Origin: Verrucomicrobiia bacterium
GTDB lineage: Bacteria; Verrucomicrobiota; Verrucomicrobiia; Limisphaerales; UBA11358
Length of the DNA stretch: 64,000 nt
Direction of reading: 5' to 3'
Assembly: GCA_031290985.1 (NCBI GenBank)
Contig: JARLJW010000084.1
Span: 1-64,000 of the forward strand
Position numbers and translations under genes: made by a program. Positions within the stretch are counted from its first letter, which is position 1, and the number at the start of each line of letters is the position of its first letter. Positions 35,061 to 50,997 of this stretch are shown one piece after another. Below the pieces are notes generated by a model, which saw only the letters and a list, made by a program, of their open reading frames with translations, was not told the origin of the DNA and searched no databases.

Positions 35061-36233
35061 ATGGCGGAATACAAAGTCCAGTTCGAGGTCTTCGAAGGCC
35101 CGCTTGACCTTCTTCTTTACCTCATCAAGAAGGAGGAGGTTGATATTTACGAGGTCAACCTCACCAAGCTGGCCACCCAGTTCATTGAATACGTCGATTT
35201 GATGCGTCAATTCGACCTCGAGGTGGCCGGTGAATTCCTCGTGATGGCCTCCACGCTGATGTACATCAAGAGCCGCGAGCTGCTCCCTGTGGACCAGCAG
35301 GTCGTCGTCGAGGCCGAGGATGAGGGCGAAGACCCCCGGTGGGAGCTCATCCGCCAGCTCGTCGAGTACAAAAAATTCAAGGACGCCGCCGCCCAGTTGC
35401 AGACCCTCGAGGAACGCCAGGAAAACGTCTATCCGCGCCTGCCCGGCAAGATCGAATTCGTCGCCGAAACCGAGCCCGCCAAGAAGGAATCCGTCGGCAT
35501 CTTCGACCTCCTCAACGCCGTCAACGCCGTCCTCAAGCGTTTCCAGGAAAAGACCGCCGGCCAGCGCGAAATCTACGAGGACAAATGGACCGTCAGCGAA
35601 AAGATGGAGTTCGTGCTCAAGACCATCACCGAGCGCACTTCCGTCCGGTTTTCCGAGCTTTTTGCCACCGCCGCCAATCGCGCGGAGGTCGTCTGCACCT
35701 TCCTCGCCCTGCTCGAACTCATCCGCCTCAAACAGCTCGCCTGCGCCCAGCCGGAGCCCTTCGCGGAGATCGAAGTCACCAAGGCCGTCGCCCAGGCCGT
35801 GTTGCCGGAACACAGCCCTGAACCCGAACCCGCGCCCACACCCGGCGCCGCCGCCTTGGCCAACATCGCGGACAGCGACGAAGATGAAAACGAACAAGTC
35901 ACCGAACCCGCCGCCGCCGATGCTGCCAACGTCGCCAAGGTCCCTTTAGTCTCTGAAGTCCCTTCAGTCCCTGAAGACGCCGTCGCTGAAGTGGAAGACA
36001 CCGAAGCCGCTGAAGATGAGGAAGAGGAAGAATATGATGATGACGACGACGATGATGACGACGACGATGACGACGACGATGATGACGACGATGATGACGA
36101 CGATGATGACGACGACGATGACGACGACGATGATGGGGACGAAGACGAAGTGGATGAGGGCGACGACAATGAAGCGCCCGCCGACGGAGTGACCCCGCCA
36201 TCGCCGGACCAGCCGGACGCCCCGAAATCATAA
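35061..36233 (+). CDS. scpA: Segregation and condensation protein A with a poly-aspartate tail
   Basis: A 390-residue kleisin that joins SMC and ScpB in the condensin complex. The first 245 residues are ordinary ScpA: YKVQFEVFEGPLDLLLYLIKKEEVDIYEV, LVMASTLMYIKSRELLP, and the C-terminal winged helix with RAEVVCTFLALLELIRLKQ. The next 145 residues are an added acidic tail with 33 consecutive aspartates (residues 326-358, DNA 36036-36134), made of GAC and GAT codons. Usual ScpA is about 250 residues. The tail is probably disordered. The gene ends 14 bases before scpB. Confidence 0.92.
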   Translation: MAEYKVQFEVFEGPLDLLLYLIKKEEVDIYEVNLTKLATQFIEYVDLMRQFDLEVAGEFLVMASTLMYIKSRELLPVDQQVVVEAEDEGEDPRWELIRQLVEYKKFKDAAAQLQTLEERQENVYPRLPGKIEFVAETEPAKKESVGIFDLLNAVNAVLKRFQEKTAGQREIYEDKWTVSEKMEFVLKTITERTSVRFSELFATAANRAEVVCTFLALLELIRLKQLACAQPEPFAEIEVTKAVAQAVLPEHSPEPEPAPTPGAAALANIADSDEDENEQVTEPAAADAANVAKVPLVSEVPSVPEDAVAEVEDTEAAEDEEEEEYDDDDDDDDDDDDDDDDDDDDDDDDDDDDDDDDDGDEDEVDEGDDNEAPADGVTPPSPDQPDAPKS

Positions 36234-38290: not shown

Positions 38291-39424
38291 TCACGGCCAC
38301 GTCCACGCGTACGGAAACTTCACCCGGTAAAACCGCTGCGAATTCGTCGGCGTCACCAACACCCCCTGCGTCAGCGTGAGGCTGCTGAAGGTGGAATTCG
38401 TCAGCCATGCCGCCGACGTCACGTTCGTGGCATAAAGCACCGTGCCGTTCAAGCCCACCGGCACGTTCACGAGGTCCAGCCGGTAATTGCTGTCAACCGG
38501 GGCGATGCCCGTCAGTTGTGCCGGGGCGATGCTCTCCTGCACAAAGTTCCCGATCACCGCGTGCGTCCGCGCCGTGGGATCCAGAAAGTCCCAAAAGATG
38601 TAATTTCCGCCCGGCCCGTTCAGCGTCAAATTTTTCAGGTTGGGATCATCCAGGGCGTCGATGCTGATGCCGTTTTTAAGCACGTTGGTGAGGCCGTAAT
38701 CCGCCGGGTTCGCAAACAGGTCGTCCACCAGCGAAAAAATATCCGGCGTATAAACCGTGAGCGCGGGGCACGTCGTGCGGATGCGCTTGACGGTGTTGGC
38801 CAAGGCGGCGTTGTAATTCTGGCATTGCTGGCGGATGAAATTCGTCTGCGCGTAATGGTTGAAGTACGGCACCTTGGAAATGTCCGCGGCATTCGGCAGC
38901 ACCAGCGTGCGGACATTTTTGGCGAAATAAAGGTTCGTGACCGCCTTGAAATAATTCGTCTGTGAAACATTGATGGCGTTGGCCCATTCGGCGGCGAGCG
39001 TGTCGTTATTGAGGGCCTCATCGTAAAGGTCGGCGTTGTTCACCCAGATCACCACCAGGGCGTTGGAGATGCTGGTGGGCGGATTGAAATGGGCCACATT
39101 GGTCACCACATCGCCGCTGCCGCAGTCAAAGAAGGACCAGTTCTTGTTCGAGTCATACAGGATGCCCTGCTGTTCCGCGAGGCATTCCACCCACACCCGG
39201 CCGTTGCAAAAACGGCGGCCATAATAGTTGGTCGACTGGGGAAAGACCTGCACGTTGTTCGTCGTGGTGGAAAGCGAATCGCCAAAAACATACAGCGCGT
39301 TGAAGGCGGCGCGGGCGTGAAAGCGCATCACCGCCAGAAAAATTACGGACATGACCAACCAGGCACGCCTGTTCACACGCAAAATCTGCCGCACCCGCCG
39401 GCAAAGTAAAGCCCGATTGAACAC
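38291..39424 (-). CDS. Secreted SGNH/GDSL-type hydrolase
   Basis: A 377-residue exported esterase-like protein. After an N-terminal basic and hydrophobic signal (cut near ARA-AF), block I is YVFGDSLS with the catalytic Ser, block II is NGRVWVE, block III is VVIWVNNADL, and block V is WDFLDPTARTHAVI with the Asp-x-x-His-like pair. The C-terminal 85 residues form a separate beta domain ending FYRVKFPYAW, a tail seen on verrucomicrobial secreted proteins. The start is uncertain: a GTG at 39424 gives a basic n-region, and an ATG at 39352 gives a short one. The substrate may be an ester or acetylated sugar. Confidence 0.8.
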   Translation of the reverse strand: MFNRALLCRRVRQILRVNRRAWLVMSVIFLAVMRFHARAAFNALYVFGDSLSTTTNNVQVFPQSTNYYGRRFCNGRVWVECLAEQQGILYDSNKNWSFFDCGSGDVVTNVAHFNPPTSISNALVVIWVNNADLYDEALNNDTLAAEWANAINVSQTNYFKAVTNLYFAKNVRTLVLPNAADISKVPYFNHYAQTNFIRQQCQNYNAALANTVKRIRTTCPALTVYTPDIFSLVDDLFANPADYGLTNVLKNGISIDALDDPNLKNLTLNGPGGNYIFWDFLDPTARTHAVIGNFVQESIAPAQLTGIAPVDSNYRLDLVNVPVGLNGTVLYATNVTSAAWLTNSTFSSLTLTQGVLVTPTNSQRFYRVKFPYAWTWP

Positions 39425-39513: not shown

Positions 39514-40791
39514 ATGAACCGCCGCCCCGCCTTCCTGCCGGCCGCCGTGCTGTTTTCCGGACTGGCCGTTATAAAGGTTTCCGCCAATGGCTTTGGGCTG
39601 CCGGACCAGGACGCCTTCGCCACCGCGCGCGGCGAGGCGTTTGCGGCCACCGCCGACAATCCGTCCGCCATCTTCTACAATCCCGCCGGCATCACCCAGC
39701 TGACGGGGGATAATTTCCGGGGCGGCCTGGACGGCATTTATCTCGACCCCACCTTCCAGCCGCCGCCGGGCGCGCCCAACAGCGGCAAGGTCTACCATGT
39801 CCAGAACAACCTGGCCGCGGTGCCGCAGTTTTTTTATACGCACTCCCTCAAAGAATTGCCGTTGAGCTTCGGCCTGGGGCTGTATGCGCCCAACGGCGGC
39901 AGCCTTAGCTGGCCGGCCGATACCGGGTTCAGCGTCGTGGCCACCAAGGGATCGCTGCTCGACCTGCGCTTGAACCCGGTCCTGGCGTGGCAAATCCTGC
40001 CCGGCCTGTCGGTCGCCGCCGGCGCCTCGGTGGATTACATGAAGCTGAACCTGGAGCAGGACCTGCTCGCCGCCCCCACGCGTTTCGCCAATTTTTTTGA
40101 ATTCACCGGCGAGGGCTGGACGTTCGGCTACAACCTCGGCCTGCTGTGGCAGCCGGTCAAGAAAGTTTCCATCGGCGCCACGTTCCGCAGCCAGACGAGC
40201 GTGAAGTTTGACGGCCATACGGAGTACGAGCTGCAGCCGCTCCCCAACCTCTCCGCCCAGGACGGCCGGCACGCTTACGGCAGCATGACCTTCCCCATGA
40301 CCGCGGTGCTCGGCGTTTCCTACCGGCCCTCGCCGAAGTGGAACCTGGAAACCGATGCGAACTACACGGACTGGAGCAGCGTGGGAACGATGAATATTTT
40401 TCAAGACTCGCCGCCCCGGCCGTTCAATGAAAAGCTGCCCGTGATCCTCGGCTGGCGGCCAAGCTGGCTGGTGGGGTTTGGCGCCACCCGTTACCTTGAC
40501 AACGGCTGGCATGTCAGCGCCGGTTATGCCTTCAGTGAAAACTCCGTGCCGGACGGCCATTATACCCCGCTGGCGGCGGATCTGGACCGGCATTTTTTAA
40601 GCGTCGGTTTCGGCCACCAGGGCAAGACGCTCGCTTTCGACATTGCCTACCAGTTCGGCTACGGCCCGGACCACACCGTCACCGGCAGCCAGCCGTCCTC
40701 CAAGCCCGCCAGCTTCGCCAATGAAATCGCCGACGGTGTCTACGCCTTCATCAGCCACTCCGTGCTGGTATCGGTCGGCCTCCGCTTCTGA
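39514..40791 (+). CDS. FadL/TodX-family outer membrane transporter
   Basis: A 425-residue outer membrane beta-barrel that imports fatty acids or other hydrophobic molecules. A signal peptide (cut near VSA-NG) is followed by NGFGLPDQDAFATARGEAFAATADNPSAIFYNPAGITQL, the typical FadL start with the N-terminal hatch, and then by alternating strands. The last residue is Phe after VSVGLRF, which marks a barrel. A second gene of the family lies convergently downstream (40818-42086), and both have the ATADNPSAI-YNPAG block. Confidence 0.88.
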   Translation: MNRRPAFLPAAVLFSGLAVIKVSANGFGLPDQDAFATARGEAFAATADNPSAIFYNPAGITQLTGDNFRGGLDGIYLDPTFQPPPGAPNSGKVYHVQNNLAAVPQFFYTHSLKELPLSFGLGLYAPNGGSLSWPADTGFSVVATKGSLLDLRLNPVLAWQILPGLSVAAGASVDYMKLNLEQDLLAAPTRFANFFEFTGEGWTFGYNLGLLWQPVKKVSIGATFRSQTSVKFDGHTEYELQPLPNLSAQDGRHAYGSMTFPMTAVLGVSYRPSPKWNLETDANYTDWSSVGTMNIFQDSPPRPFNEKLPVILGWRPSWLVGFGATRYLDNGWHVSAGYAFSENSVPDGHYTPLAADLDRHFLSVGFGHQGKTLAFDIAYQFGYGPDHTVTGSQPSSKPASFANEIADGVYAFISHSVLVSVGLRF

Positions 40792-40817: not shown

Positions 40818-42086
40818 TTAAAACCGATAGCCCACGGAAAAGGACAGCGACGGGATGAACAGCTGGTATTTTCCCGCCGACGACGCGAGGGTGTAAGGGT
40901 TTCCGTTATACGGCGAGGCCGCAATCGTGCGTTGCGGTCCCGTGATGATCTGTCCCGCCACGGCCCAATGCCAGTGTTCGCCATCGCGCCCAAAGCCAAG
41001 GCTGCCCGTGTGCAATTGCGTATCCGGCACCGCCGGCGTGAAATATTCCTCGGAGGTCGTGGACGTGGTGAAGAAATAACCGGCGCTCACAAACCAGCCG
41101 TTGTCAAAGTACCGCGTCACCCCAAATTTATACATCCAGGTGTCATGCCAGTGGAGCGGGAACGGCAGGTCGGATCCAAAGATCGCCGACGTGCCTTGCA
41201 AATTGAGCCCGGTCGTCCGATGCGTGTTCGCCCATTCCACGTCGGCTTCCGCGTTCCAGTGCGGGGTCGGCCGGTAGGAAACACCCCAGCTCAGCGACTG
41301 CGGCAGGGCCGTTTCCGTTGACGTCGGGACGGTCAAAACCGCGCCGTTGCCCGGCCGGTAGTCGGAATGCCCGCTGTAATTCATCATCGACTCGCTGCGA
41401 TAGTCCACGCCAAAAGCCAGTTGCTTGATCGGCTGCCAGCGGATGCCGGCGGTGGCGCCTAAAGAAGTATCATGGCCGTTGAACGTGTATTCATCCACCG
41501 CTGAAAGCAGTCCGCGCCGGAACTTCAAGGTCGAATAACTCGCCGTCGGGCCGGCCGCGATGGACAGGCTGGGCAGCGGCTTCCACGCGATCACCGGGCT
41601 GACCGTGATGACTTGCATCCGCGCCTCGAGGTCCAACGTGCGCAGGCTGCTGTTCGCCGGCCATTCCACCCCCAGGCCGAACGGGGCATAGAGGCCCAGA
41701 CCGAAGGCAAACGGCAGGTTCGTCGGCGAATAAACCGCATAGATCTGCGGCACCGGCGTGACTTCAAATTTTGAATTCACCTCCGGCCCGCCCCCCGCCG
41801 GGACGTAATTGGCGCTGATACCCAGGTAATTCAGTTCCCCGACCTCGATATCCCAGCCTGAAATTTGCGTGATGCCGGCCGGGTTATAGTAGATGGCTGA
41901 AGGATTATCCGCCGTGGCCACGAACGCATTGCCGCGGGCGATCGCCTGCGGGTCCTGGTTCGGCAGCAGGAAGCCGATGGCGCGGGAAACCTCCGGCACC
42001 AGCAGCGCCATCAGCAGTGTGGCAAACGGATACAGGCGTTGACACATTTTGCGGCGAAACGGAGTTGCGGTTATCATGGTTGTCAT
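40818..42086 (-). CDS. FadL/TodX-family outer membrane transporter (second copy)
   Basis: A 422-residue barrel protein, paralogous to the gene next to it. The signal (cut near SRA-IG) is followed by GFLLPNQDPQAIARGNAFVATADNPSAIYYNPAGITQI. It ends in SFSVGYRF. The two ends nearly meet (26 bases apart). It lies 103 bases after the desaturase gene on the same strand, so a fatty acid desaturase and a fatty acid importer may be cotranscribed. Confidence 0.88.
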   Translation of the reverse strand: MTTMITATPFRRKMCQRLYPFATLLMALLVPEVSRAIGFLLPNQDPQAIARGNAFVATADNPSAIYYNPAGITQISGWDIEVGELNYLGISANYVPAGGGPEVNSKFEVTPVPQIYAVYSPTNLPFAFGLGLYAPFGLGVEWPANSSLRTLDLEARMQVITVSPVIAWKPLPSLSIAAGPTASYSTLKFRRGLLSAVDEYTFNGHDTSLGATAGIRWQPIKQLAFGVDYRSESMMNYSGHSDYRPGNGAVLTVPTSTETALPQSLSWGVSYRPTPHWNAEADVEWANTHRTTGLNLQGTSAIFGSDLPFPLHWHDTWMYKFGVTRYFDNGWFVSAGYFFTTSTTSEEYFTPAVPDTQLHTGSLGFGRDGEHWHWAVAGQIITGPQRTIAASPYNGNPYTLASSAGKYQLFIPSLSFSVGYRF

Positions 42087-42189: not shown

Positions 42190-43272
42190 TTAAGCTTTTT
42201 CTGTGCCGGAACGCGGAAAAAGGCGGTCCGTGGTGGGGGTCCCGTCAAACTTGAGCCAGCGGTGCTGCTCGTAATCGTATAGTTGGCAGACATTTAAATT
42301 GGTCGAAAACTTGAAGACGGAGCCGTTCTGGATGGTCACGTCCCCGGCAAACCGTTTTTCCAAATTGCTCTGGCATTCCGGAAGGTTGTACAGCGGAATC
42401 TTTGGATCCGCGTGGTGCGCGGTATGTTCGAGGATGTTGTGAAACAACAACTCGATCGGGCGCGGCAATTTTACGTGAACGGTGCCCCGGACCTGGCCGT
42501 TGAAATAGTTCCATTCTTCCCGGGTGGAAAACCACGCCACATTCGGATGCGTGTGGTGCTGCACCGTGACGTAGGCCGAGATCCAGTTCCAGAACAGAAA
42601 GGGCAGGAGCAGCAGCGCAAAAACGTCGAATGCCTGGTGCCCGGGCGAGGCTGCCCGGTCAAGATACAGCAGCAGGCCGGTCTCCGAGGCGGCAAACAGC
42701 ACGACCAGCCCGAGGTCGAAATAATAAATGCCCTTGGCGAGTTTGGCCCACTCCGCCGGGCGCGGCACGATCAGGTGGTTCCACCATACTTCAATCAGGT
42801 AAAAAAAACCCACGCCAAAAACCGTGCGGTAAAAACGCTCCCGCCACCGCCGGTGCCACGGCAGCGCGTCAAATTCCGCCTTGGAAAACGGCGGGTAGAC
42901 ATAGTCCATCCCCCGCAAATTCGTCCAGCCATGATGCAGCTGGTTATGGCCCAGCTCCCAGGTGGCATAGGGATGCAATGAAGGCAGAAAGGCGATGCGC
43001 GCCAAAACCGCATTCAACCAGCCCGCCGGCGTGAGGCTGTCATGACAGGCATCGTGCCCGATCACGAACAGGATCGAATACGACAGCCCGATCAACAAAC
43101 CGAGGGCGATTTTGACGGGCCAGCGGTCGGTCATCAGCCCGAGCCAGCAAAAGGTGAGATAAAATGCAAAGGTCAATACAAACAGCCCGCAGCCCTTGAC
43201 CGTGGAACGGAAGCGGCTGTGCTGGGGAAAGGTGGCCCGGATTTGACCGACACTTGGTTCTTTCATGCTCAA
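42190..43272 (-). CDS. Fatty acid desaturase
   Basis: A 360-residue membrane di-iron enzyme that introduces double bonds into acyl chains. The three His boxes are HDACH (about 73-77), HNQLHH (about 109-114) and HTAHH (about 284-288), with four hydrophobic segments between them. The order and spacing match the FA_desaturase family. It is divergent from the methyltransferase gene at 43369, with 96 bases between, where control of both may lie, and upstream of a FadL gene. Confidence 0.85.
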   Translation of the reverse strand: MSMKEPSVGQIRATFPQHSRFRSTVKGCGLFVLTFAFYLTFCWLGLMTDRWPVKIALGLLIGLSYSILFVIGHDACHDSLTPAGWLNAVLARIAFLPSLHPYATWELGHNQLHHGWTNLRGMDYVYPPFSKAEFDALPWHRRWRERFYRTVFGVGFFYLIEVWWNHLIVPRPAEWAKLAKGIYYFDLGLVVLFAASETGLLLYLDRAASPGHQAFDVFALLLLPFLFWNWISAYVTVQHHTHPNVAWFSTREEWNYFNGQVRGTVHVKLPRPIELLFHNILEHTAHHADPKIPLYNLPECQSNLEKRFAGDVTIQNGSVFKFSTNLNVCQLYDYEQHRWLKFDGTPTTDRLFPRSGTEKA

Positions 43273-43368: not shown

Positions 43369-44880
43369 ATGTCTGGCCCTGCAATGAGACAACCTCCCAA
43401 AGGAACCGGGGCCAGCCCAACCGTCACGCCCCCCAAGCCGGAGCTGACGGACGCCCAGGTGAAGACGGCCGTTCCGGACGCCGCCCTGGCCCACGTGACC
43501 TTTGAGACCGGCGGGGGCGGCCCCGTGCGGGCCACGCTTTTGCGCCTCACCCGCCACGCGCTGGCGTTTGAAGTCTACAATCCGGCCTGGATACCGCAGT
43601 TGTCGGAAAACTTGAAGGACTTCAAGGTCATCGGCCCCGCGGGCCGGCTTTATTCCGGCCACGCCGTGATCCGCAGCCTCATCAACACCGGCACCAAGGT
43701 CGTCTGCGAAGTGGCGATCGACGAGAAAGCCTGGCAGGAACTGGCCTTGCATCCCGATGGCACCGCCCCGAAAAACATCCGGGGCGGCTTTCAGGAATTC
43801 CTCAACGGCTGGCAAAAATTTTACCGCGTCGGCAACGATTACAAGATAGTCATCGCCGACCTGCACTCGTTTTTGACCGATGTCCGCCTGTGGCTGGACA
43901 AGCTCGAACTGGAGCTGAGCTCCCTTCCCGCCAAGGAACGGCTGCAGCGGGAGCAGGGCTACGCCCTCGAATTGCGCGAGCCGGTTTTGCGCGCCCTGAA
44001 CGGGTTGTTTGACCGCTTTGAAGAAATCTCGGACCAGATCGAACCGGACCTCCTGCCTGTGCACCGGGCCTATGGGCAGCGGCTGTTGCACCCGTTTTTG
44101 CTGTCCTCCCCCTTTTTGCACCGCACCTACGCCAAGCCCCTCGGCTACGCCGGCGATTACGAGATGATGAACATGATCGTGCGGAACCAGATGAACGGCG
44201 GTTCGCTCTTCGCCAAATTCATGGACGCCTTTCTCCTGGTGCAGGCGGCGCCCCAGGCCGTCCGGAACCGGGTCGGCTTTCTCCATGACCGGATCGTGGC
44301 CGAAACCGGCCGGGCCGCCCGGCTCGGCCGCAAGGCCAAGATTTTCAGCGTCGCGTGCGGGCCGGCCTGGGAGGCCGTGAACTTCCTCGCCGAACATCCG
44401 CTGGCCGACCATGCCGACATTGAGTTCATGGATTTCGAAGCCGAAACCTTGCGCAATGTGGCCGCCCAGGTGGACGCGGTGAAACGGAAAAACCACTGCC
44501 AGGCCACCGTCAAGTTCACCAAAAACTCCGTGCAAAACCTGTTGCGGGCGGGCGGGCGGGCCGCCCCGCCGGAAGGCCAGTTCGACCTCGTCTACTGCTC
44601 GGGGCTTTATGATTATTTGAACGATCAGGTCTGCCAAACCCTGAACAACTGCTTCTACCATTTTTTGAAACCCGGCGGTTTGATGGTGGTGGGCAATTTC
44701 AGCCCGGACACCCGGCATCAAAACATCATGGAGCATTTTGCCGAATGGTTTCTGATCTACCGTAACAGCCAGGAGCTGGCCGCGTTGTCCCCCGCGCTCG
44801 CCCCCAAGGATTATTGCGTCGTGCGCGCCGAATCCACGGGCACCAACTTGTTTTTGGAAGTTCGCAAGCCCTCATCATGA
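43369..44880 (+). CDS. PhcB-like SAM-dependent methyltransferase with N-terminal PilZ-like domain
   Basis: A 503-residue protein. Residues 40-130 form a small beta domain resembling PilZ-type folds (RATLLRLTRHALAFEVYNP...). The middle has GYAGDYEMMNMIVRN, GSLFAKFMDAFLL and APQAVRNRVGFL, which I associate with the family annotated as 3-hydroxypalmitate methyl ester (PhcB-like) biosynthesis proteins. A class I methyltransferase follows: motif I IFSVACGPAWE, the acid EFMDFE, and FDLVYCSGLYDYL. The family methylates the carboxyl group of 3-hydroxy fatty acids to give a diffusible signal. Its stop overlaps the kinase start (ATGA). Confidence 0.7.
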   Translation: MSGPAMRQPPKGTGASPTVTPPKPELTDAQVKTAVPDAALAHVTFETGGGGPVRATLLRLTRHALAFEVYNPAWIPQLSENLKDFKVIGPAGRLYSGHAVIRSLINTGTKVVCEVAIDEKAWQELALHPDGTAPKNIRGGFQEFLNGWQKFYRVGNDYKIVIADLHSFLTDVRLWLDKLELELSSLPAKERLQREQGYALELREPVLRALNGLFDRFEEISDQIEPDLLPVHRAYGQRLLHPFLLSSPFLHRTYAKPLGYAGDYEMMNMIVRNQMNGGSLFAKFMDAFLLVQAAPQAVRNRVGFLHDRIVAETGRAARLGRKAKIFSVACGPAWEAVNFLAEHPLADHADIEFMDFEAETLRNVAAQVDAVKRKNHCQATVKFTKNSVQNLLRAGGRAAPPEGQFDLVYCSGLYDYLNDQVCQTLNNCFYHFLKPGGLMVVGNFSPDTRHQNIMEHFAEWFLIYRNSQELAALSPALAPKDYCVVRAESTGTNLFLEVRKPSS

Positions 44881-47540
44881 GCGACCCGCAGTTCCAGAAA
44901 GCCTACGAGGCGCAAAACCGGGCGGACTACGTCACCAACGCCACGGTGGCCACGGTCATCCAGATTCCGCTCAACCTCGCGTGCTCCTTCATGGATCACG
45001 TCATGTATCCCGCCCAGGCGGCGCTGTTCCTGAAGGTCCGCCTGGGCTGCGCCTTGCTGGTCACCTTCGCGTGGCTGCGGTTCAAACTGCACCGCGATCC
45101 GTCCCGGCACCACTTCGGCATCGTCTGGATCATGTGCCCGCTCGTGATGATCCTGTGGATGATCTACATCGCGGATGACCGCTACTCGCCCTACTACGCG
45201 GGGCTGAACATCATCCTGCTCGGCATGGGGCTGCTCACGCCCTGGGCTTACTGGCAAAATTTGTTGATCACCCTGTTCGTGCTCGCCATGTATGTGGTCA
45301 TTTCGCTGGGATCAAAAACCCCCCAGCCCGTCGGTTTTCTGGTCAACAACATCACCTTCCTCGCCGTCACCTCCGCCATCGTCGTCAGCGCCAGCGTGTC
45401 CAGCGCGCGCCAGCGCCTGCGCGAATTCACGCTCCGCTACGAACTGGACAAGAACAAACGCGAGCTGGAAGCCACCAACCACAAGCTCATCGAGCTCGAC
45501 AAGCTCAAGAGCCGGTTCTTCGCCAATGTCAGCCACGAGCTGCGCACCCCGCTCACCCTCCTGCTTGGCCCGCTGGAGGTGCTCATCCAGAAGTTCAGCC
45601 AGTCGGTCGACTCCACTTCGCAGGAAATGCTCGCGACCATGCATGCCAATGGCATGCGCCTCCTCAAGCTCATCAACGACCTGCTCGAGCTCATCCGGCT
45701 GGAGGCCGGCCGGCTCGAGAGCAAGACCGAGCCGCTGCCGGTGATGGACTTCATGAACGGCATCGCCAGCTCCGTCCGCCAGATGGCCCGCGAAAAAAAC
45801 ATCACCTTCGAAACCCATTCCGCCCCCGAGCTCGGCACCATCCTCGCCGACCGCGACAAGCTCGAAAAGATTGTGCTGAACCTCCTGTTCAACGCCCTCA
45901 AATTCACCCCCTCCGGCGGCCGCGTCTGGTTCCTCGCGGAACAAAAAGACGATCAGTTCATCATCGTGGTCGGCGATACGGGGAAAGGCATTGATGGAAA
46001 AAGCCTCCCGTTCGTCTTCGACCGCTTTTGGCAGGAGGACAGCTCCTCCAAGCGCAAATTTCAGGGGGTCGGCATCGGCCTCGCCCTCGTGAAGGAGCTG
46101 ACCGAGATGATGGGTGGTCTCGTCACTGTTCAAAGCCAGCTTGGCAAAGGCGCCACCTTCACCGTCAAACTGCCGTACAAACCCGCCGGCGCCGCCACAC
46201 CGCAAACCCCGGCCGCCGCCCCCGCCCCCGCCCACACCGAGGAGTGGCTCACCAACCTCTACCGCCGCGCGGAGCTGTTTCCCACCGTCACCGTCCCGCG
46301 GCAAACGACCCCCGGCACCACTCTTTTTTCCCGCCGCTCCCAGCGCCCGCTCGTCCTGGTGGCCGATGACGAGCCGGATATGCGCCGTTTTCTCGTCTCG
46401 CAATTGATGGATGACTACGAAGTCATCGAGGCCGCGGACGGCCTGGAGGCCACCGACAAGGCCCAGGAAACCCTGCCGGATGTCATCCTGCTCGACCTCA
46501 TGATGCCCCACAAAGACGGCCTGCAGGTCTGCCGCGAGCTGCGCGAATACGCCCCGACCGCCGGCATCCCCATCATCCTCCTGACCGCCCGGGCCGACGA
46601 AGAGGTCAAGTTCGACGCCCTCCAGATGGGCGCGAATGACTTCCTCGCCAAGCCTTTCTCCTCCACCGAGCTCCAGGCGCGCATCAAGAACCTCATCGAG
46701 TCCCATCATTACCAGCGCCGCCTCACCAAGCAGAACCAGGCGCTGAATGAAGCCATCGAGCAGATCAAGGAAACCGAGATGCAGCTCGTCCAGTCGGAGA
46801 AGCTCTCCTCCCTCGGCCGCATGAGCGCCGGCATCATCCATGAGATCAACAACCCCTTGAATTTCTCCATGACCGGCCTCTTTGCCCTCCGCAACAAGGG
46901 CAAAAAACTCCCGGAGGCGGACCGCCCGGATTACGATGCCATCATCAACGACATCGAGGAAGGCTTGAAGCGCGTGCGCAACATCGTCTCGGACCTGCGC
47001 ACCTTCACCCATCCCGGCGGCGGCACCGGCGAACCGGTCGAGGCGGGCGATGCCGCCGACGCCGCCGTGCGTTTCCTGGGCGGGGAATGGAAGGACACCG
47101 TCGAGATCCATCAGGACATCCCGCCCGCGCAAAATCTCTGGGCCAACCGCAACAAGCTCATCCACGTCCTCGTCAACCTCCTGCAGAACGCCATCGACGC
47201 GTTGCGGGACAAGCAATTTTTCGCCGGGGAGAAACCCCAGATCTGGATCGAGGGCAAAATCGTCGGCGACCGCAGCCTCATCATCGTCCGCGACAACGGC
47301 CCCGGCATCGAACCCAAGATCATGGACAAGATTTTTGACCCCTTCTTCACCACCAAGGAGGTCGGCAAAGGGATGGGACTCGGCCTCAGCATCTGCTACC
47401 GTATCGTGCAAGGCTATGGCGGAAAAATCTCGGTGAAAAGCGAGCCGGGCAAATTCTGCCAGTTCACCCTCGACTTTCCGCTGGATGCCGACGCGGTCAC
47501 CAACCTGGAAATTGAAAATGGACAATCCGTACGACTATAA
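44877..47540 (+). CDS. Membrane hybrid histidine kinase, kinase-receiver-kinase (PhcS-PhcR-like fusion)
   Basis: An 887-residue protein. Residues 20-180 hold about six hydrophobic helices, with no large periplasmic part. A coiled linker leads to kinase 1: His220 in NVSHELRTP, then N-box NLLFNALKF and G-boxes GDTGKGI and GVGIGLAL. A receiver follows (about 490-605; Asp540 in LLDLMMP, Lys in AKPFSS). Kinase 2 has His655 in GIIHEINNPLN, N-box NLLQNAIDAL and DNGPGIEP. The helical sensor without a periplasmic loop suits a hydrophobic ligand. In Ralstonia, PhcS (membrane kinase) and PhcR (receiver plus kinase-like end) are separate; here they look joined. Confidence 0.85.
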   Translation: MSDPQFQKAYEAQNRADYVTNATVATVIQIPLNLACSFMDHVMYPAQAALFLKVRLGCALLVTFAWLRFKLHRDPSRHHFGIVWIMCPLVMILWMIYIADDRYSPYYAGLNIILLGMGLLTPWAYWQNLLITLFVLAMYVVISLGSKTPQPVGFLVNNITFLAVTSAIVVSASVSSARQRLREFTLRYELDKNKRELEATNHKLIELDKLKSRFFANVSHELRTPLTLLLGPLEVLIQKFSQSVDSTSQEMLATMHANGMRLLKLINDLLELIRLEAGRLESKTEPLPVMDFMNGIASSVRQMAREKNITFETHSAPELGTILADRDKLEKIVLNLLFNALKFTPSGGRVWFLAEQKDDQFIIVVGDTGKGIDGKSLPFVFDRFWQEDSSSKRKFQGVGIGLALVKELTEMMGGLVTVQSQLGKGATFTVKLPYKPAGAATPQTPAAAPAPAHTEEWLTNLYRRAELFPTVTVPRQTTPGTTLFSRRSQRPLVLVADDEPDMRRFLVSQLMDDYEVIEAADGLEATDKAQETLPDVILLDLMMPHKDGLQVCRELREYAPTAGIPIILLTARADEEVKFDALQMGANDFLAKPFSSTELQARIKNLIESHHYQRRLTKQNQALNEAIEQIKETEMQLVQSEKLSSLGRMSAGIIHEINNPLNFSMTGLFALRNKGKKLPEADRPDYDAIINDIEEGLKRVRNIVSDLRTFTHPGGGTGEPVEAGDAADAAVRFLGGEWKDTVEIHQDIPPAQNLWANRNKLIHVLVNLLQNAIDALRDKQFFAGEKPQIWIEGKIVGDRSLIIVRDNGPGIEPKIMDKIFDPFFTTKEVGKGMGLGLSICYRIVQGYGGKISVKSEPGKFCQFTLDFPLDADAVTNLEIENGQSVRL

Positions 47541-48771
47541 AAAATTTGCCGTCCTCTACGTGGACGACGAAGAGCGCTCGCTGACCAATTTTGCGCGGGC
47601 CTTCGGCGAGGAATTTCGCGTCTTCACCGCCTCCAGCGCGCAGGCCGGCCTGAAGATTTTCGAGGACCACGCCGATGAGATCGGCATCCTCATGACCGAC
47701 CAGCGCATGCCCGGGGAAAAGGGCGTGTGGCTCCTTGAAAAAGCCCGCCAGTTGCGCCCGCGCGTCCTGCGCATCCTCGTGACCGCCTTCGCGGACATGG
47801 ACGCCGCCATCGCCGCCGTCAACAGCGGCGCCATCTACAAATACGTCTCCAAACCCTGGGACCCGCAGCAGCTCGACATGACCCTCAAGCAGGGCCTCGA
47901 GTTTTTCCTCGTCGCCGCCGAGCGCGACCAGTTGCTCCGCGAAAAAATGTCCGTGCTGCGGAACATGATGATCGCCGACCGCATCGTCAGCCTCGGCCTC
48001 CTGGCCGCCGGCCTCAGCCATCACATCAAAAATTCCATGGTGGCCGTCAAGACCTTCCTCGAACTCGCCCCCATGAAAATGAACGAGGAAAAGGCCAGCA
48101 ACGCCGAGCTGCGCGACCCCGATTTCTGGCGCGACTACCACGCCAACGTCCAGGGCCAGATCGAGAAGATCAACAGTCTCCTCGCCGACCTCCGCTCCGC
48201 CTCGGAAAACAACAAAAACAGCGAGCCGTTCCCGGATGAGATCGTCCTCAAAACCGCCGTCGGCCAGCGGCTCGAAGGCCTCCGCGAAGCCTTCGCCGCC
48301 CGCCGCATTGCCGTGGACAACCAGATTCCCGATGCCCTCCCGCACATGCATGTGGATCGTCCCAAATTCGACCGCCTCTTTGATTTGTTGCTCAAGGACG
48401 AACTCGCCATGCTTCCGGCGGGCAGCCAGATTGTCATCACCGCTGAAGCCCAGGGGCGGGATGTCGCCATCAAGCTCACCGACAACGGCCCCGCCCTGCC
48501 CCTGGCGGCCTTGCAGGTCGTCCTCGACCCTTTCACCGTCACCAGCGGGGTGCCGTCCGAGTATGGCATCAACCTGATGGCCTGCTTCTTCATCGCCCAC
48601 CACCACGGTGGCAAGATCGAGGCGGCCAGCCACCCCGGCGGCAACGTCTTTACCGTCCGCCTGCCCATCAAGCCCGAACGGCAGGTCGTCGCCCCCGCCG
48701 AGGACGCCGATTTCATGAAACGGGCGCTGCTGAATGACAGCCTCTGGGACAAGCTTCTCACCAGCGGCTGA
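47518..48771 (+). CDS. Response regulator with degenerate kinase-like C-terminus (PhcQ-like)
   Basis: A 417-residue protein. Residues 8-125 are a receiver (VLYVDDEERS; phospho-acceptor Asp61 in MTDQRMPG; YVSKPWD). A helical part follows, with LSHHIKNSMV (His168/His169) where a kinase would have its H-box. The ATPase-like part has DNGPAL but lacks the N-box asparagine (RLFDLLLKDEL) and the second Gly-box, so it is probably not an active kinase. Its start overlaps the kinase gene by 23 bases, which implies co-translation. In Ralstonia, PhcQ is likewise a receiver protein ending the phcBSR operon; similarity beyond layout is unproven. Confidence 0.75.
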   Translation: MDNPYDYKKFAVLYVDDEERSLTNFARAFGEEFRVFTASSAQAGLKIFEDHADEIGILMTDQRMPGEKGVWLLEKARQLRPRVLRILVTAFADMDAAIAAVNSGAIYKYVSKPWDPQQLDMTLKQGLEFFLVAAERDQLLREKMSVLRNMMIADRIVSLGLLAAGLSHHIKNSMVAVKTFLELAPMKMNEEKASNAELRDPDFWRDYHANVQGQIEKINSLLADLRSASENNKNSEPFPDEIVLKTAVGQRLEGLREAFAARRIAVDNQIPDALPHMHVDRPKFDRLFDLLLKDELAMLPAGSQIVITAEAQGRDVAIKLTDNGPALPLAALQVVLDPFTVTSGVPSEYGINLMACFFIAHHHGGKIEAASHPGGNVFTVRLPIKPERQVVAPAEDADFMKRALLNDSLWDKLLTSG

Positions 48772-48786
48772 ACCGGGGCGGATCCG

Positions 48787-48804
48787 GGCCGGCGCCGGCC
48801 TTTT
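48787..48804 (+). terminator. Possible terminator after the response regulator gene
   Basis: A 14-bp GC palindrome (ggccggc-gccggcc) is followed by TTTT, 16 bases after the stop codon. The short T run makes it weak. Confidence 0.35.
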
Positions 48805-48870
48805 AGATGGTTTGAATACAGCAATCTGTGGGTTGCCGGCCAACGGCTGAACTATCAGCATAAGTTTCGT

Positions 48871-48899
48871 TTGACGGCGTGGCACGCAACGTGGAAAAT
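48871..48899 (+). promoter_or_regulatory. Possible promoter of the REC-GAF-PAS kinase gene
   Basis: TTGACG (48871-48876), 17 bases, then GAAAAT (48894-48899). The -35 matches well and the -10 matches at four of six. A GAGG site (48951-48954) precedes the ATG at 48961 with good spacing. Confidence 0.25.
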
Positions 48900-48960
48900 G
48901 CTTTTTAGCAGTTACGGAAACCAAATGTGTACGGATTTTTGGATGTTCTAGAGGCACCGA

Positions 48961-50997
48961 ATGAAAACAATCCTGGTTTTATCGCCCCACCCCGATTTTG
49001 CGGAGGCCATCCGCGCGGCGCTCAATGCGGATCAATACCGCATCGTCCACCGCCTCAACGTCGAGGAGGGCGAGCCGCTGCTCGTTCACGGCCTGGTCAG
49101 CACCTGCATTCTGGACGCCGACCTCATGGGCGTGGAAAGCGTCTGGGTCATCGAGCGCCTCCGCCGCCGGGACACCAAGACGCCCATCATCGCCTTCACC
49201 TCGAACGCCCAGTCCGACTGGGAGGAAGAAGCCTTTCTGCGCGGCGTCACGCATGTGCTCTCCAAGCCCGTCCGCACCCGCCTGTTGAATTCGGTCATGG
49301 AACGCCTCGCCGCCGCCGCCGTCCCCGCGCGTTTTACACCCAGCGTTCCGCCCGGCAACACCGCCGTCTTTGCGCGCACGGTGAATGAACCTGACGCCGT
49401 CAACCGTTTCGCCAACACCTCGCAGACCCTCGATGTCCTGCGCGATTTTTCCTCGATCCTCACCCACTCGCTTGACGCCGAGGCGATGCTCAAGCAGTTC
49501 CTGCTCTTCCTCCGGGAAACCCTGAGCGTCAACCGCGCCGGCATTTTCCTGAACCGCCCGTGTGCGCCCCTGACCGAGGTCGTTTCCCACGAAGACTCGC
49601 GCCGCCTCCGTTCCGCCTCCGCCATCGGCCTCGCCTCCGGCCTCCTTGAACACTTTGAACTCTCCCTGGACTCCGGCATCGGCGCCCAGATCGCGCGCCT
49701 CGGCCGCATCCTCCGCCGCGACAGCGATGAAGCCCGGGCCGACAGCGAAACCCAGAAGGAATTTGAACTCCTCGGCGCGCAGGTCGCCGTGCCGATCCTC
49801 GACCGCGACGTGATTGTCGGCGTCGCCGTGTTTGACGGCCGCGTCACCGGCGAACCGCTCGTCAACGTCGAGCTCGAGCTCATCTTCCGCCTCCTCGAAC
49901 AGGTCGGCCTCGGCCTGCGCAACATCTGGCTGCACGACCAGCTCGCGGGCAACCACGAGATGATGTCCAACGTCCTCCGTGAACTCAGCAGCGCCTGCAT
50001 CGTCGTCGGCCGCGACCTCAAGGTGCTCCACGCCAACAAGGCCGCCCGCCGCCATTTCGGCCGCAAAAACGAACGCAGCGGCGGACTCGAATTCAGCGAC
50101 CTCCCGCAGCAGCTCGGCTCCAAGATTTATCAGGTCTTGAAAACCGGCTCCGCCCTCGAACCCTTCCGGTATGAACCGGAAAACTCGCCGGGCATGGTTT
50201 ACAACGTCAGCATCGTCCCCTTTCAACGCGGCAGCTCCGCCATGCCCTCCTCGGCCCTGCTCACCGCCGATGACCTCACGCAAAGCGAACAGCTCCGCAA
50301 GCTCGAGGTCGAGACCGCCAACCTCCGCCTGGTCCGCACCATGGCCGACCGCATGGCCCACGAGATCGGCAACGCCATGGTGCCCCTCTCCACGCACCAG
50401 CAGTTGATCGCCGAAAAATTTGACGACGCCGAATTCCGCGAATCGCTCGACCTCGCCATGGGCGAAGGCGTCAAGCGCGTTTCCCGGCTCATCAACCAGA
50501 TGCGCTTCCTCGCCCGTGACGGCCACATCGAGGAGGAAGCCTTCCCCATCGAGAAGGTCATCGAAGAAGCCTACCAGGATGCCATGCGCCAGCAGCCGGC
50601 TGTCGGCGCGCAACTGAAGATGGACCACCCCGGCAAACCTTTCATCATCACCGGCGACCGCGCCGCGCTGCGCCACGCCCTCTCCGAGATCATGCTGAAC
50701 GCCCTGCAGGCCAACCCCAAGTCTCCGCAGATCGGCGTTAAATTCCAGACCGAAGGCGCCCTTGGCGGCCGCGCCCTCACCATCGAGGTGCAGGACAACG
50801 GCGCCGGCTTCACCGCCGACGCCGCCAAAAAAGTTCCCGCCCCGTTTTACACCACCCGCAGCGTCGGCCTCGGCCTCCGCCTGGCCGTCACCCACAAAAT
50901 AATCGAGAACCACCACGGCAAACTCGAGATCGTCCCCTCGCCCTCCGGCATCGTCCGCGTCTCCCTGCCCATCGAGCAGGCCGCCGGTCAGGCCTGA
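48961..50997 (+). CDS. Histidine kinase with receiver, GAF and PAS domains
   Basis: A 678-residue cytoplasmic protein. Residues 3-115 are a receiver (TILVLSPHPDF; Asp52 in CILDADLMG; LSKPV). Residues 155-320 look like a GAF domain (DFSSILTHSLDAEAMLKQFLLFL... LGAQVAVPILDRDVIVGVAVFD). A PAS-like segment (about 335-430; ELSSACIVVGRDLKVLHANKAA) precedes the kinase. His467 lies in RMAHEIGNAMVP, the N-box is EIMLNALQANP, and the G-boxes are DNGAGF and SVGLGLRLAV. It follows the Phc-like genes on the same strand after 189 bases, with its own probable promoter. It may take part in the same relay. Confidence 0.85.
   Translation: MKTILVLSPHPDFAEAIRAALNADQYRIVHRLNVEEGEPLLVHGLVSTCILDADLMGVESVWVIERLRRRDTKTPIIAFTSNAQSDWEEEAFLRGVTHVLSKPVRTRLLNSVMERLAAAAVPARFTPSVPPGNTAVFARTVNEPDAVNRFANTSQTLDVLRDFSSILTHSLDAEAMLKQFLLFLRETLSVNRAGIFLNRPCAPLTEVVSHEDSRRLRSASAIGLASGLLEHFELSLDSGIGAQIARLGRILRRDSDEARADSETQKEFELLGAQVAVPILDRDVIVGVAVFDGRVTGEPLVNVELELIFRLLEQVGLGLRNIWLHDQLAGNHEMMSNVLRELSSACIVVGRDLKVLHANKAARRHFGRKNERSGGLEFSDLPQQLGSKIYQVLKTGSALEPFRYEPENSPGMVYNVSIVPFQRGSSAMPSSALLTADDLTQSEQLRKLEVETANLRLVRTMADRMAHEIGNAMVPLSTHQQLIAEKFDDAEFRESLDLAMGEGVKRVSRLINQMRFLARDGHIEEEAFPIEKVIEEAYQDAMRQQPAVGAQLKMDHPGKPFIITGDRAALRHALSEIMLNALQANPKSPQIGVKFQTEGALGGRALTIEVQDNGAGFTADAAKKVPAPFYTTRSVGLGLRLAVTHKIIENHHGKLEIVPSPSGIVRVSLPIEQAAGQA

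Follow-up and report, generated by a model that had tools for sequence, protein, structure and literature searches.

Does a verrucomicrobial genome carry a signalling system of the Phc kind, known from Ralstonia and Cupriavidus, and if so, which parts of it? The question is raised by a stretch of 64,000 nucleotides (contig JARLJW010000084.1 of assembly GCA_031290985.1, a Verrucomicrobiia bacterium), referred to here as the window, in which a cassette of four open reading frames, numbered gene 1 to gene 4, lies on the plus strand. A sequence-only reading of the window had likened their order and domains to the operon phcB-phcS-phcR-phcQ. The answer favoured here, with a probability of about 0.6, is a PhcB-PhcS-PhcQ quorum-sensing cassette whose signal would be the methyl ester of a fatty acid, probably a 3-hydroxy one, that may enter through the outer-membrane channel FadL. 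The homology of the three core proteins, their gene order, their conservation and their pairing are firm. Publications are cited by PMC number.

Layout of the cassette

The four genes are the following, the count for gene 4 referring to 38 order-level loci (40 regions were fetched and 2 with only short methyltransferases were dropped).

43369..44880, plus strand: gene 1, PhcB-type S-adenosylmethionine-dependent methyltransferase, 503 aa
44877..47540, plus strand: gene 2, PhcS-type membrane sensor kinase, 887 aa
47518..48771, plus strand: gene 3, PhcQ-type response regulator, 417 aa; receiver and degenerate histidine-kinase tail
48961..50997, plus strand: gene 4, accessory receiver-GAF-PAS-histidine kinase by Pfam, 678 aa; present in 17 of the 38 order-level loci

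Genes 1 and 2 overlap by 4 bases (ATGA) and genes 2 and 3 by 23 bases, and a gap of 189 bases separates gene 3 from gene 4. In Pfam, gene 1 has generic methyltransferase matches, weak and all under cut-off; gene 2 a membrane domain followed by HisKA-HATPase-REC-HisKA-HATPase; gene 3 a REC domain, a weak HisKA (24.0 bits, cut-off 26.9) and a HATPase (35 bits), with no DNA-binding domain matched; and gene 4 REC-GAF-PAS-HisKA-HATPase, the HisKA being weak. The receiver aspartate and the H-box histidine are present in gene 3, and its kinase tail looks degenerate because the N-box asparagine of the ATP-binding region is unrecognisable by eye. The sequence-only reading had described four genes with these positions and overlaps, gene 2 as a membrane hybrid kinase, gene 3 as a receiver with a degenerate kinase tail and gene 4 as a receiver-kinase; coordinates and Pfam domains agree with it.

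Gene 1 and PhcB

The reference loci, obtained by a profile scan of genome contigs, are the best 80 of 572 relatives; their titles are all beta-proteobacterial. In each of the 80, the sensor kinase comes next after the methyltransferase. The order is B-S-R-Q in 59, the same with a short R-type receiver in 14, B-S-Q in 5 and of other patterns in 2, and all end in Q. In the Cupriavidus necator locus (L127) the domains are a methyltransferase, a membrane kinase, a receiver-kinase and a receiver without recognised tail, a content that the published make-up of phcB, phcS, phcR and phcQ matches (PMC8578825, PMC6989110). By order and domains, the Cupriavidus and allied loci are putative counterparts of the phc operon in the literature. 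A single PhcB copy was identified in each of the eight beta-proteobacterial genomes searched, and in one Cupriavidus metagenome-assembled genome the methyltransferase is split over two frames (L104:1981-3372).

By its sequence, gene 1 is a full-length homologue of PhcB. Aligned pairwise with PhcB of C. necator it is identical at 155 of 456 positions (34%, 263 bits), and its AlphaFold2 model (mean predicted local distance difference test score 76.6) divides into an N-terminal domain of six strands, a middle part made of helices and a Rossmann methyltransferase. A first tree of 109 rows did not hold the outgroup as one clade, and two long short-form rows fell beside the window's protein; the careful tree has 63 rows, 46 of the 109 having been dropped as long-branched, near-duplicate or short-form. 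There, beta-proteobacterial PhcB and gene 1 stand together (branch support 96/98) versus five short methyltransferases. The claim of a PhcB-like methyltransferase is thus upheld by identity and by the trees, and the phylogeny did not place gene 1 with families unrelated to PhcB.

The databases add little. NCBIfam has no useful model for gene 1 (one CheR match of 16.9 bits), a silence that is uninformative because Cupriavidus PhcB gets no NCBIfam match either; in Pfam the first 334 residues of the methyltransferase are unmatched. A sequence search of solved structures gave one marginal match, and the 50 Foldseek matches listed for gene 1 are mostly general methyltransferases, the best being 3ocj, a 'possible exported protein' of Bordetella parapertussis (E 9e-11). 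Sampling covered genomes of two phyla plus a plasmid collection. In the latter, a tblastn search with gene 1 matched 143 records, one of which covers at least 80% of the query: plasmid pPHS1_P of Paraburkholderia graminis (35.4% identity), on which a sensor kinase and two receiver proteins come after the methyltransferase.

Conservation bears on what the enzyme methylates. Twenty-six positions were examined in 90 aligned homologues, drawn from both groups and in a few cases without the N-terminal part; 16 are invariant in all 90: K256, P257, G259, G262, D263, R301, C330, G331, E335, D355, Y409, G412, D415, Y416, N443 and W460. Eight more are kept in 82 to 89 homologues, and position 456 is variable (43 of 90). 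These invariant residues, shared by both groups, argue against another small-molecule substrate, such as a different acid or acyl conjugate, read by the same sensor in a Phc-like logic with other chemistry, and so does the FadL linkage described below, which points to a long acyl chain. An identity to PhcB of about 35%, the diversity of the family in the phylum (the end branch of L223 measures 1.65) and short-form methyltransferases that precede the same sensor in two loci (L225, L226) would fit such a substrate, which we nevertheless regard as quite unlikely.

Gene 2 and PhcS

Gene 2 lies directly downstream of gene 1, in the position of PhcS. Its sensor (about residues 1-205), modelled as six helices, matches the sensor of C. 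necator PhcS with 65.5 bits (E 4e-18) in the pairwise comparison, and was also compared in an 11-row alignment; of the two kinases in gene 2, the second matches the PhcS kinase with 164 bits (E 7e-48) and the first scores lower. By similarity, gene 2 is a PhcS homologue in which kinase 2 is of the PhcS type, and kinase 1 with its receiver is an extra module. The PhcS-like character claimed for it earlier is borne out by these two matches.

The extra kinase 1 was identified in 19 of the 38 order-level loci. The other 19 comprise two in which a contig edge falls within it (L060, L069), one with a broken kinase (L055) and 16 simple sensor-kinases of about 450-510 aa, a length close to that of PhcS. 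Foldseek found no match for the gene 2 sensor at E 0.001 or below, the best being ImcA (8wcn, 2.8e-3); PhcS of Paraburkholderia graminis matches MASE8 under the cut-off (E 0.0044).

Gene 3, gene 4 and PhcQ

Gene 3 matches PhcQ of C. necator with 142 bits and PhcR with 112 bits, and all 35 gene 3 homologues compared, the window's included, are closer to PhcQ than to PhcR. In the tree of the receiver part, the 16 PhcQ rows sit within the gene 3 family, where they join those of family f53 (100/97), and the 14 PhcR rows form a clade apart. Support for the node that unites gene 3 with PhcQ is 83/70 only, and a clade made of gene 3 alone is not rejected by the approximately unbiased (AU) test. On scores and tree position, gene 3 is a PhcQ homologue and the cassette is of the form phcB-phcS-phcQ. 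Of the operon proposed by the sequence-only reading, B and S stood; the third gene is PhcQ-like and not PhcR, an assignment rejected on those scores and its place outside the PhcR clade, and gene 4 as PhcQ was rejected on its domain content (REC-GAF-PAS-kinase). The B-S-Q assignment fits a report that PhcQ carries most of the response (PMC8578825); PhcQ is also reported to bind PhcA (PMC13320629), and the sensing pair has been named as PhcS-PhcQ (PMC12993560).

The tail of PhcQ matches profiles of the gene 3 tail over 51 columns (order-level set), 40 columns (families f50, f53 and f62) and 173 columns (f51, E 2.5e-5), and has no profile match to the PhcR kinase. The order-level gene 3 tail matches the PhcR kinase over 218 columns and that of f51 does not. 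A worn-down histidine kinase as the origin of the PhcQ tail may be read from this, as a suggestion only.

In four loci of families f50, f53 and f62, whose methyltransferases are nearest to beta-proteobacterial PhcB (L214, L215, L218, L219), two receiver genes follow the sensor kinase, recalling R and Q. The second of these falls outside the PhcR group.

Pairing of sensor and methyltransferase

The sensor and METHYLTRANSFERASE form a pair. Of 97 genomes searched, the window's own included, 64 match the methyltransferase and 61 match the sensor domain, the latter at 64 places. The sensor is directly downstream of the methyltransferase on the same strand at 61 of the 64 places, with a median of 23 bases between matches. 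Exceptions are one genome with the methyltransferase on another contig (G051), a probable contig-end fragment (G079) and one where no methyltransferase was found (G037). When methyltransferase matches longer than 900 bases are tallied, 60 genomes carry both genes; the methyltransferase stands alone in 2 (G041, G077), the sensor in 1, and 34 have neither. Related genomes are not independent, so Fisher values for the pairing counts and for those of FadL given below cannot be read as true probabilities.

A sample of the phylum gave the same picture: the methyltransferase was matched in 26 of 387 genomes and nearly full length in 22, the window's included; 21 of the latter were searched and the sensor was identified in all 21, adjoining the methyltransferase in 20 (one genome, G045, is common to this set and to the 97). 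The four with short or partial methyltransferase matches only gave no sensor match. In the Pseudomonadota sample 19 of 299 genomes match the methyltransferase, 3 with full-length proteins (the centre included) and 16 with short forms.

That ordinary two-component genes adjoin a methyltransferase by chance would suit a genome as rich in signalling genes as this one (80 PAS_9 matches). The idea is contradicted by the recurring order and by a sensor held in common with PhcS, and with the sensor behind the methyltransferase at 61 of 64 places the cassette is more than chance; we consider accidental adjacency highly improbable.

Variant arrangements were also identified. In G338, the one clearly unlinked case among the 21 genomes, the methyltransferase (L223) lies on another contig than the pair of sensor kinase and gene 3 (L224). 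L221:2089-4146 encodes a fusion of 685 aa, with a receiver domain at the N-terminus and the methyltransferase behind it, which ties the enzyme to the phosphorelay. Two second cassettes of a single genus (L225:7505-11346 and L226:7360-11224) have a short methyltransferase (319 aa), without the N-terminal domain, before the same sensor kinase and gene 3.

FadL and other neighbours

The genes upstream of the cassette are the following.

38291..39424, minus strand: GDSL-type lipase/acylhydrolase (PF00657); possible ester-handling enzyme, uncertain member of the cassette
39514..40791, plus strand: second FadL-family channel (PF03349, 4.3e-49)
40818..42086, minus strand: FadL-family outer-membrane long-chain fatty-acid channel (PF03349, 4.6e-37)
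42190..43272, minus strand: fatty acid desaturase (PF00487); divergent neighbour, probably not a core member

The FadL neighbours are conserved, and the sequence-only reading had overlooked them. FadL lies at most 7 kb from the methyltransferase in 30 of the 38 order-level loci. Among 59 genomes, 41 of 55 FadL places have a methyltransferase no farther than 6.5 kb away (one split gene, in G035, is counted twice in the 55), and 33 of the 43 methyltransferase-bearing genomes have FadL within that distance. Any FadL match at all was found in 41 of the 43 genomes with the methyltransferase versus 3 of the 16 without it; the query was the window's own FadL, so that distant FadLs may be missed, and short methyltransferase matches were left out. 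This linkage leads us to infer a role of FadL in passing the ester through the outer membrane, and genetic and physiological work has suggested that long-chain acyl-homoserine lactones enter by FadL (PMC9938287).

These neighbours also suit a sensor of fatty-acid nutrients or membrane stress, in which FadL would import environmental fatty acids, the kinase would sense them and the methyltransferase would buffer or tune the ligand, with nothing broadcast. Fatty-acid uptake and breakdown are the usual tasks of FadL and lipases, 12 of the 38 loci have a GDSL lipase nearby, and the scarcity of FadL in genomes without the methyltransferase agrees. Methyl-ester formation, on the other hand, is not usual in fatty-acid use, the homologues of known role are quorum-sensing parts, and the beta-proteobacterial loci (best 80 of 572) keep B-S-Q without a neighbouring FadL. 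A nutrient or stress sensor is, on this evidence, unlikely.

The desaturase was rejected as a core part, since it occurs in none of the 38 related loci; in the window it is separated from the methyltransferase gene by 96 bases and is divergent. Farther away are a ScpA homologue with a long run of aspartate and other acidic residues near its C-terminus (35061-36233) and a large protein of 1554 aa with autotransporter-type beta repeats (TIGR02601; 53043-57707).

Proposed function

In the quorum-sensing reading, the methyltransferase would, by analogy with PhcB, transfer a methyl group from S-adenosylmethionine to the carboxyl group of a long-chain, probably 3-hydroxy, fatty acid, yielding an uncharged ester that would build up outside the cell. 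The ester may re-enter through the neighbouring FadL channels, as their linkage suggests, and would be bound by the six-helix sensor of the kinase, as PhcS and the tight pairing of sensor and methyltransferase suggest. Judging by the domains, the kinase would pass the signal by way of its internal receiver and its second kinase on to the PhcQ-type receiver. The last, having no recognised DNA-binding domain, would act by protein contact, as PhcQ reportedly does with PhcA. The ester, its sensing and the output are what we infer; the parts and their arrangement are observed.

Several points weigh against this reading. The identity of gene 1 to PhcB is just about 33-36%, so the substrate could differ, and 60 of 90 homologues retain the arginine that corresponds to beta-proteobacterial residue 22; a change at residue 22 lowered signal production in Ralstonia (PMC6989110; Ralstonia numbering is assumed to match). 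The sensor match was not found in G077, and in G338 methyltransferase and sensor are on different contigs. PhcR is absent at the window locus, where genes 2 and 3 overlap and so leave no gene between them and gene 3 falls outside the PhcR clade; it is also missing in 5 of the beta-proteobacterial loci (best 80 of 572), and deletion of phcR in one Ralstonia strain is reported to have left phenotypes largely unchanged (PMC8578825). PhcA was not identified: the window genome has 11 LysR-type proteins, none examined as PhcA, and no transcription factor was recognised in 13 neighbour clusters present in at least 4 loci each, several of them unannotated. Finally, FadL is near phc in none of the 80 beta-proteobacterial loci (best 80 of 572).

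Evolutionary history

As to the phylum label, no 16S gene was found in the assembly, in a search that also scored in just 9 of 14 control genomes, and a Verrucomicrobia-type family gave one match under its cut-off. Several families of the window's phylum have the cassette. A recent arrival in the window genome was rejected, since the cassette is found again in the window's own genus and order and the flanking clusters recur too. A DAHP synthase and a pyruvate kinase, named from their first residues, flank the cassette in the window, and the locus looks old in the group because 11 and 9 of the 38 regions, respectively, have their clusters too.

The careful methyltransferase tree unites the beta-proteobacterial rows in one clade (100/100). 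Their sister group is formed by rows of families f50, f53 and f62 (98/95), and those of f81 and f96 follow (100/99), all five families belonging to the window's phylum. The outgroup-rooted tree nests the beta-proteobacterial clade in the phylum; holding the phylum together costs 4.9 log units. Transfer between phyla is a likely reading of this distribution; as to its direction, the AU test does not reject the alternative to nesting (p 0.409 for the methyltransferase, 0.306 and 0.27 for the receivers). It is conceivable, at somewhat less than even odds, that fatty-acyl methyl-ester quorum sensing is old and common in the window's phylum, with a FadL port and PhcB-PhcS-PhcQ, and that the Phc system of the Ralstonia group was acquired from there or from a close group, PhcR and the link to PhcA being gained later and the PhcQ tail being a worn-down histidine kinase.

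Comparison with known systems

A literature search, largely of open-access papers, found no report of a Phc system in Verrucomicrobia among the titles and abstract openings that it covered, and the word stem Verrucomicrob is absent from the main text of a 2026 review (PMC13220807). If the proposed reading is true, a signalling system known from Betaproteobacteria extends to a second phylum, Verrucomicrobiota, and may be more widespread than thought, and that phylum would gain a candidate cell-to-cell signal with testable chemistry. An outer-membrane port for the ester would be suggested, and the conserved core would be B-S-Q, not PhcR. The phylum would also be a possible source of the quorum-sensing system controlling virulence in a major plant pathogen.

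The Lqs system (LqsA-LqsS-LqsR) resembles the cassette as kinase-based quorum sensing with small lipid-like signals (PMC10653808); it differs from Phc in genes and signal according to the same source, the comparison being one of descriptions. The short class I methyltransferases (about 300-350 aa) of Rhizobium plasmids and others have a related catalytic domain, with about 25-30% identity in the rows listed, but lack the N-terminal domain and stand outside the full-length clade in the careful tree. At the Rhizobium locus examined no kinase is annotated within 4 kb; at a Pseudanabaena locus a HAMP kinase and a receiver lie on the opposite strand.

The beta-proteobacterial B-S-Q loci (5 of the 80, L141 being one) have the same three core genes, but their PhcS is simple, their PhcQ is without recognised kinase tail and no FadL neighbours them. 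The phcBSRQ operon of Ralstonia and Cupriavidus, whose signals are the methyl esters of 3-hydroxy palmitic acid (3-OH PAME) and 3-hydroxy myristic acid (3-OH MAME), was compared through the Cupriavidus and allied loci. It shares with the window the full-length methyltransferase and its N-terminal domain, the six-helix sensor, the PhcS-type kinase, the PhcQ-type receiver, the B-S-Q order and the tight coupling. Differences of the window are the lack of PhcR, the extra kinase-receiver module, the longer kinase-like tail of gene 3, the extra receiver-GAF-PAS-kinase, and FadL and sometimes lipase as neighbours. As judged from proteins and gene order, the window cassette is a PhcB-PhcS-PhcQ variant of the Phc kind with FadL, not the phcBSRQ operon.

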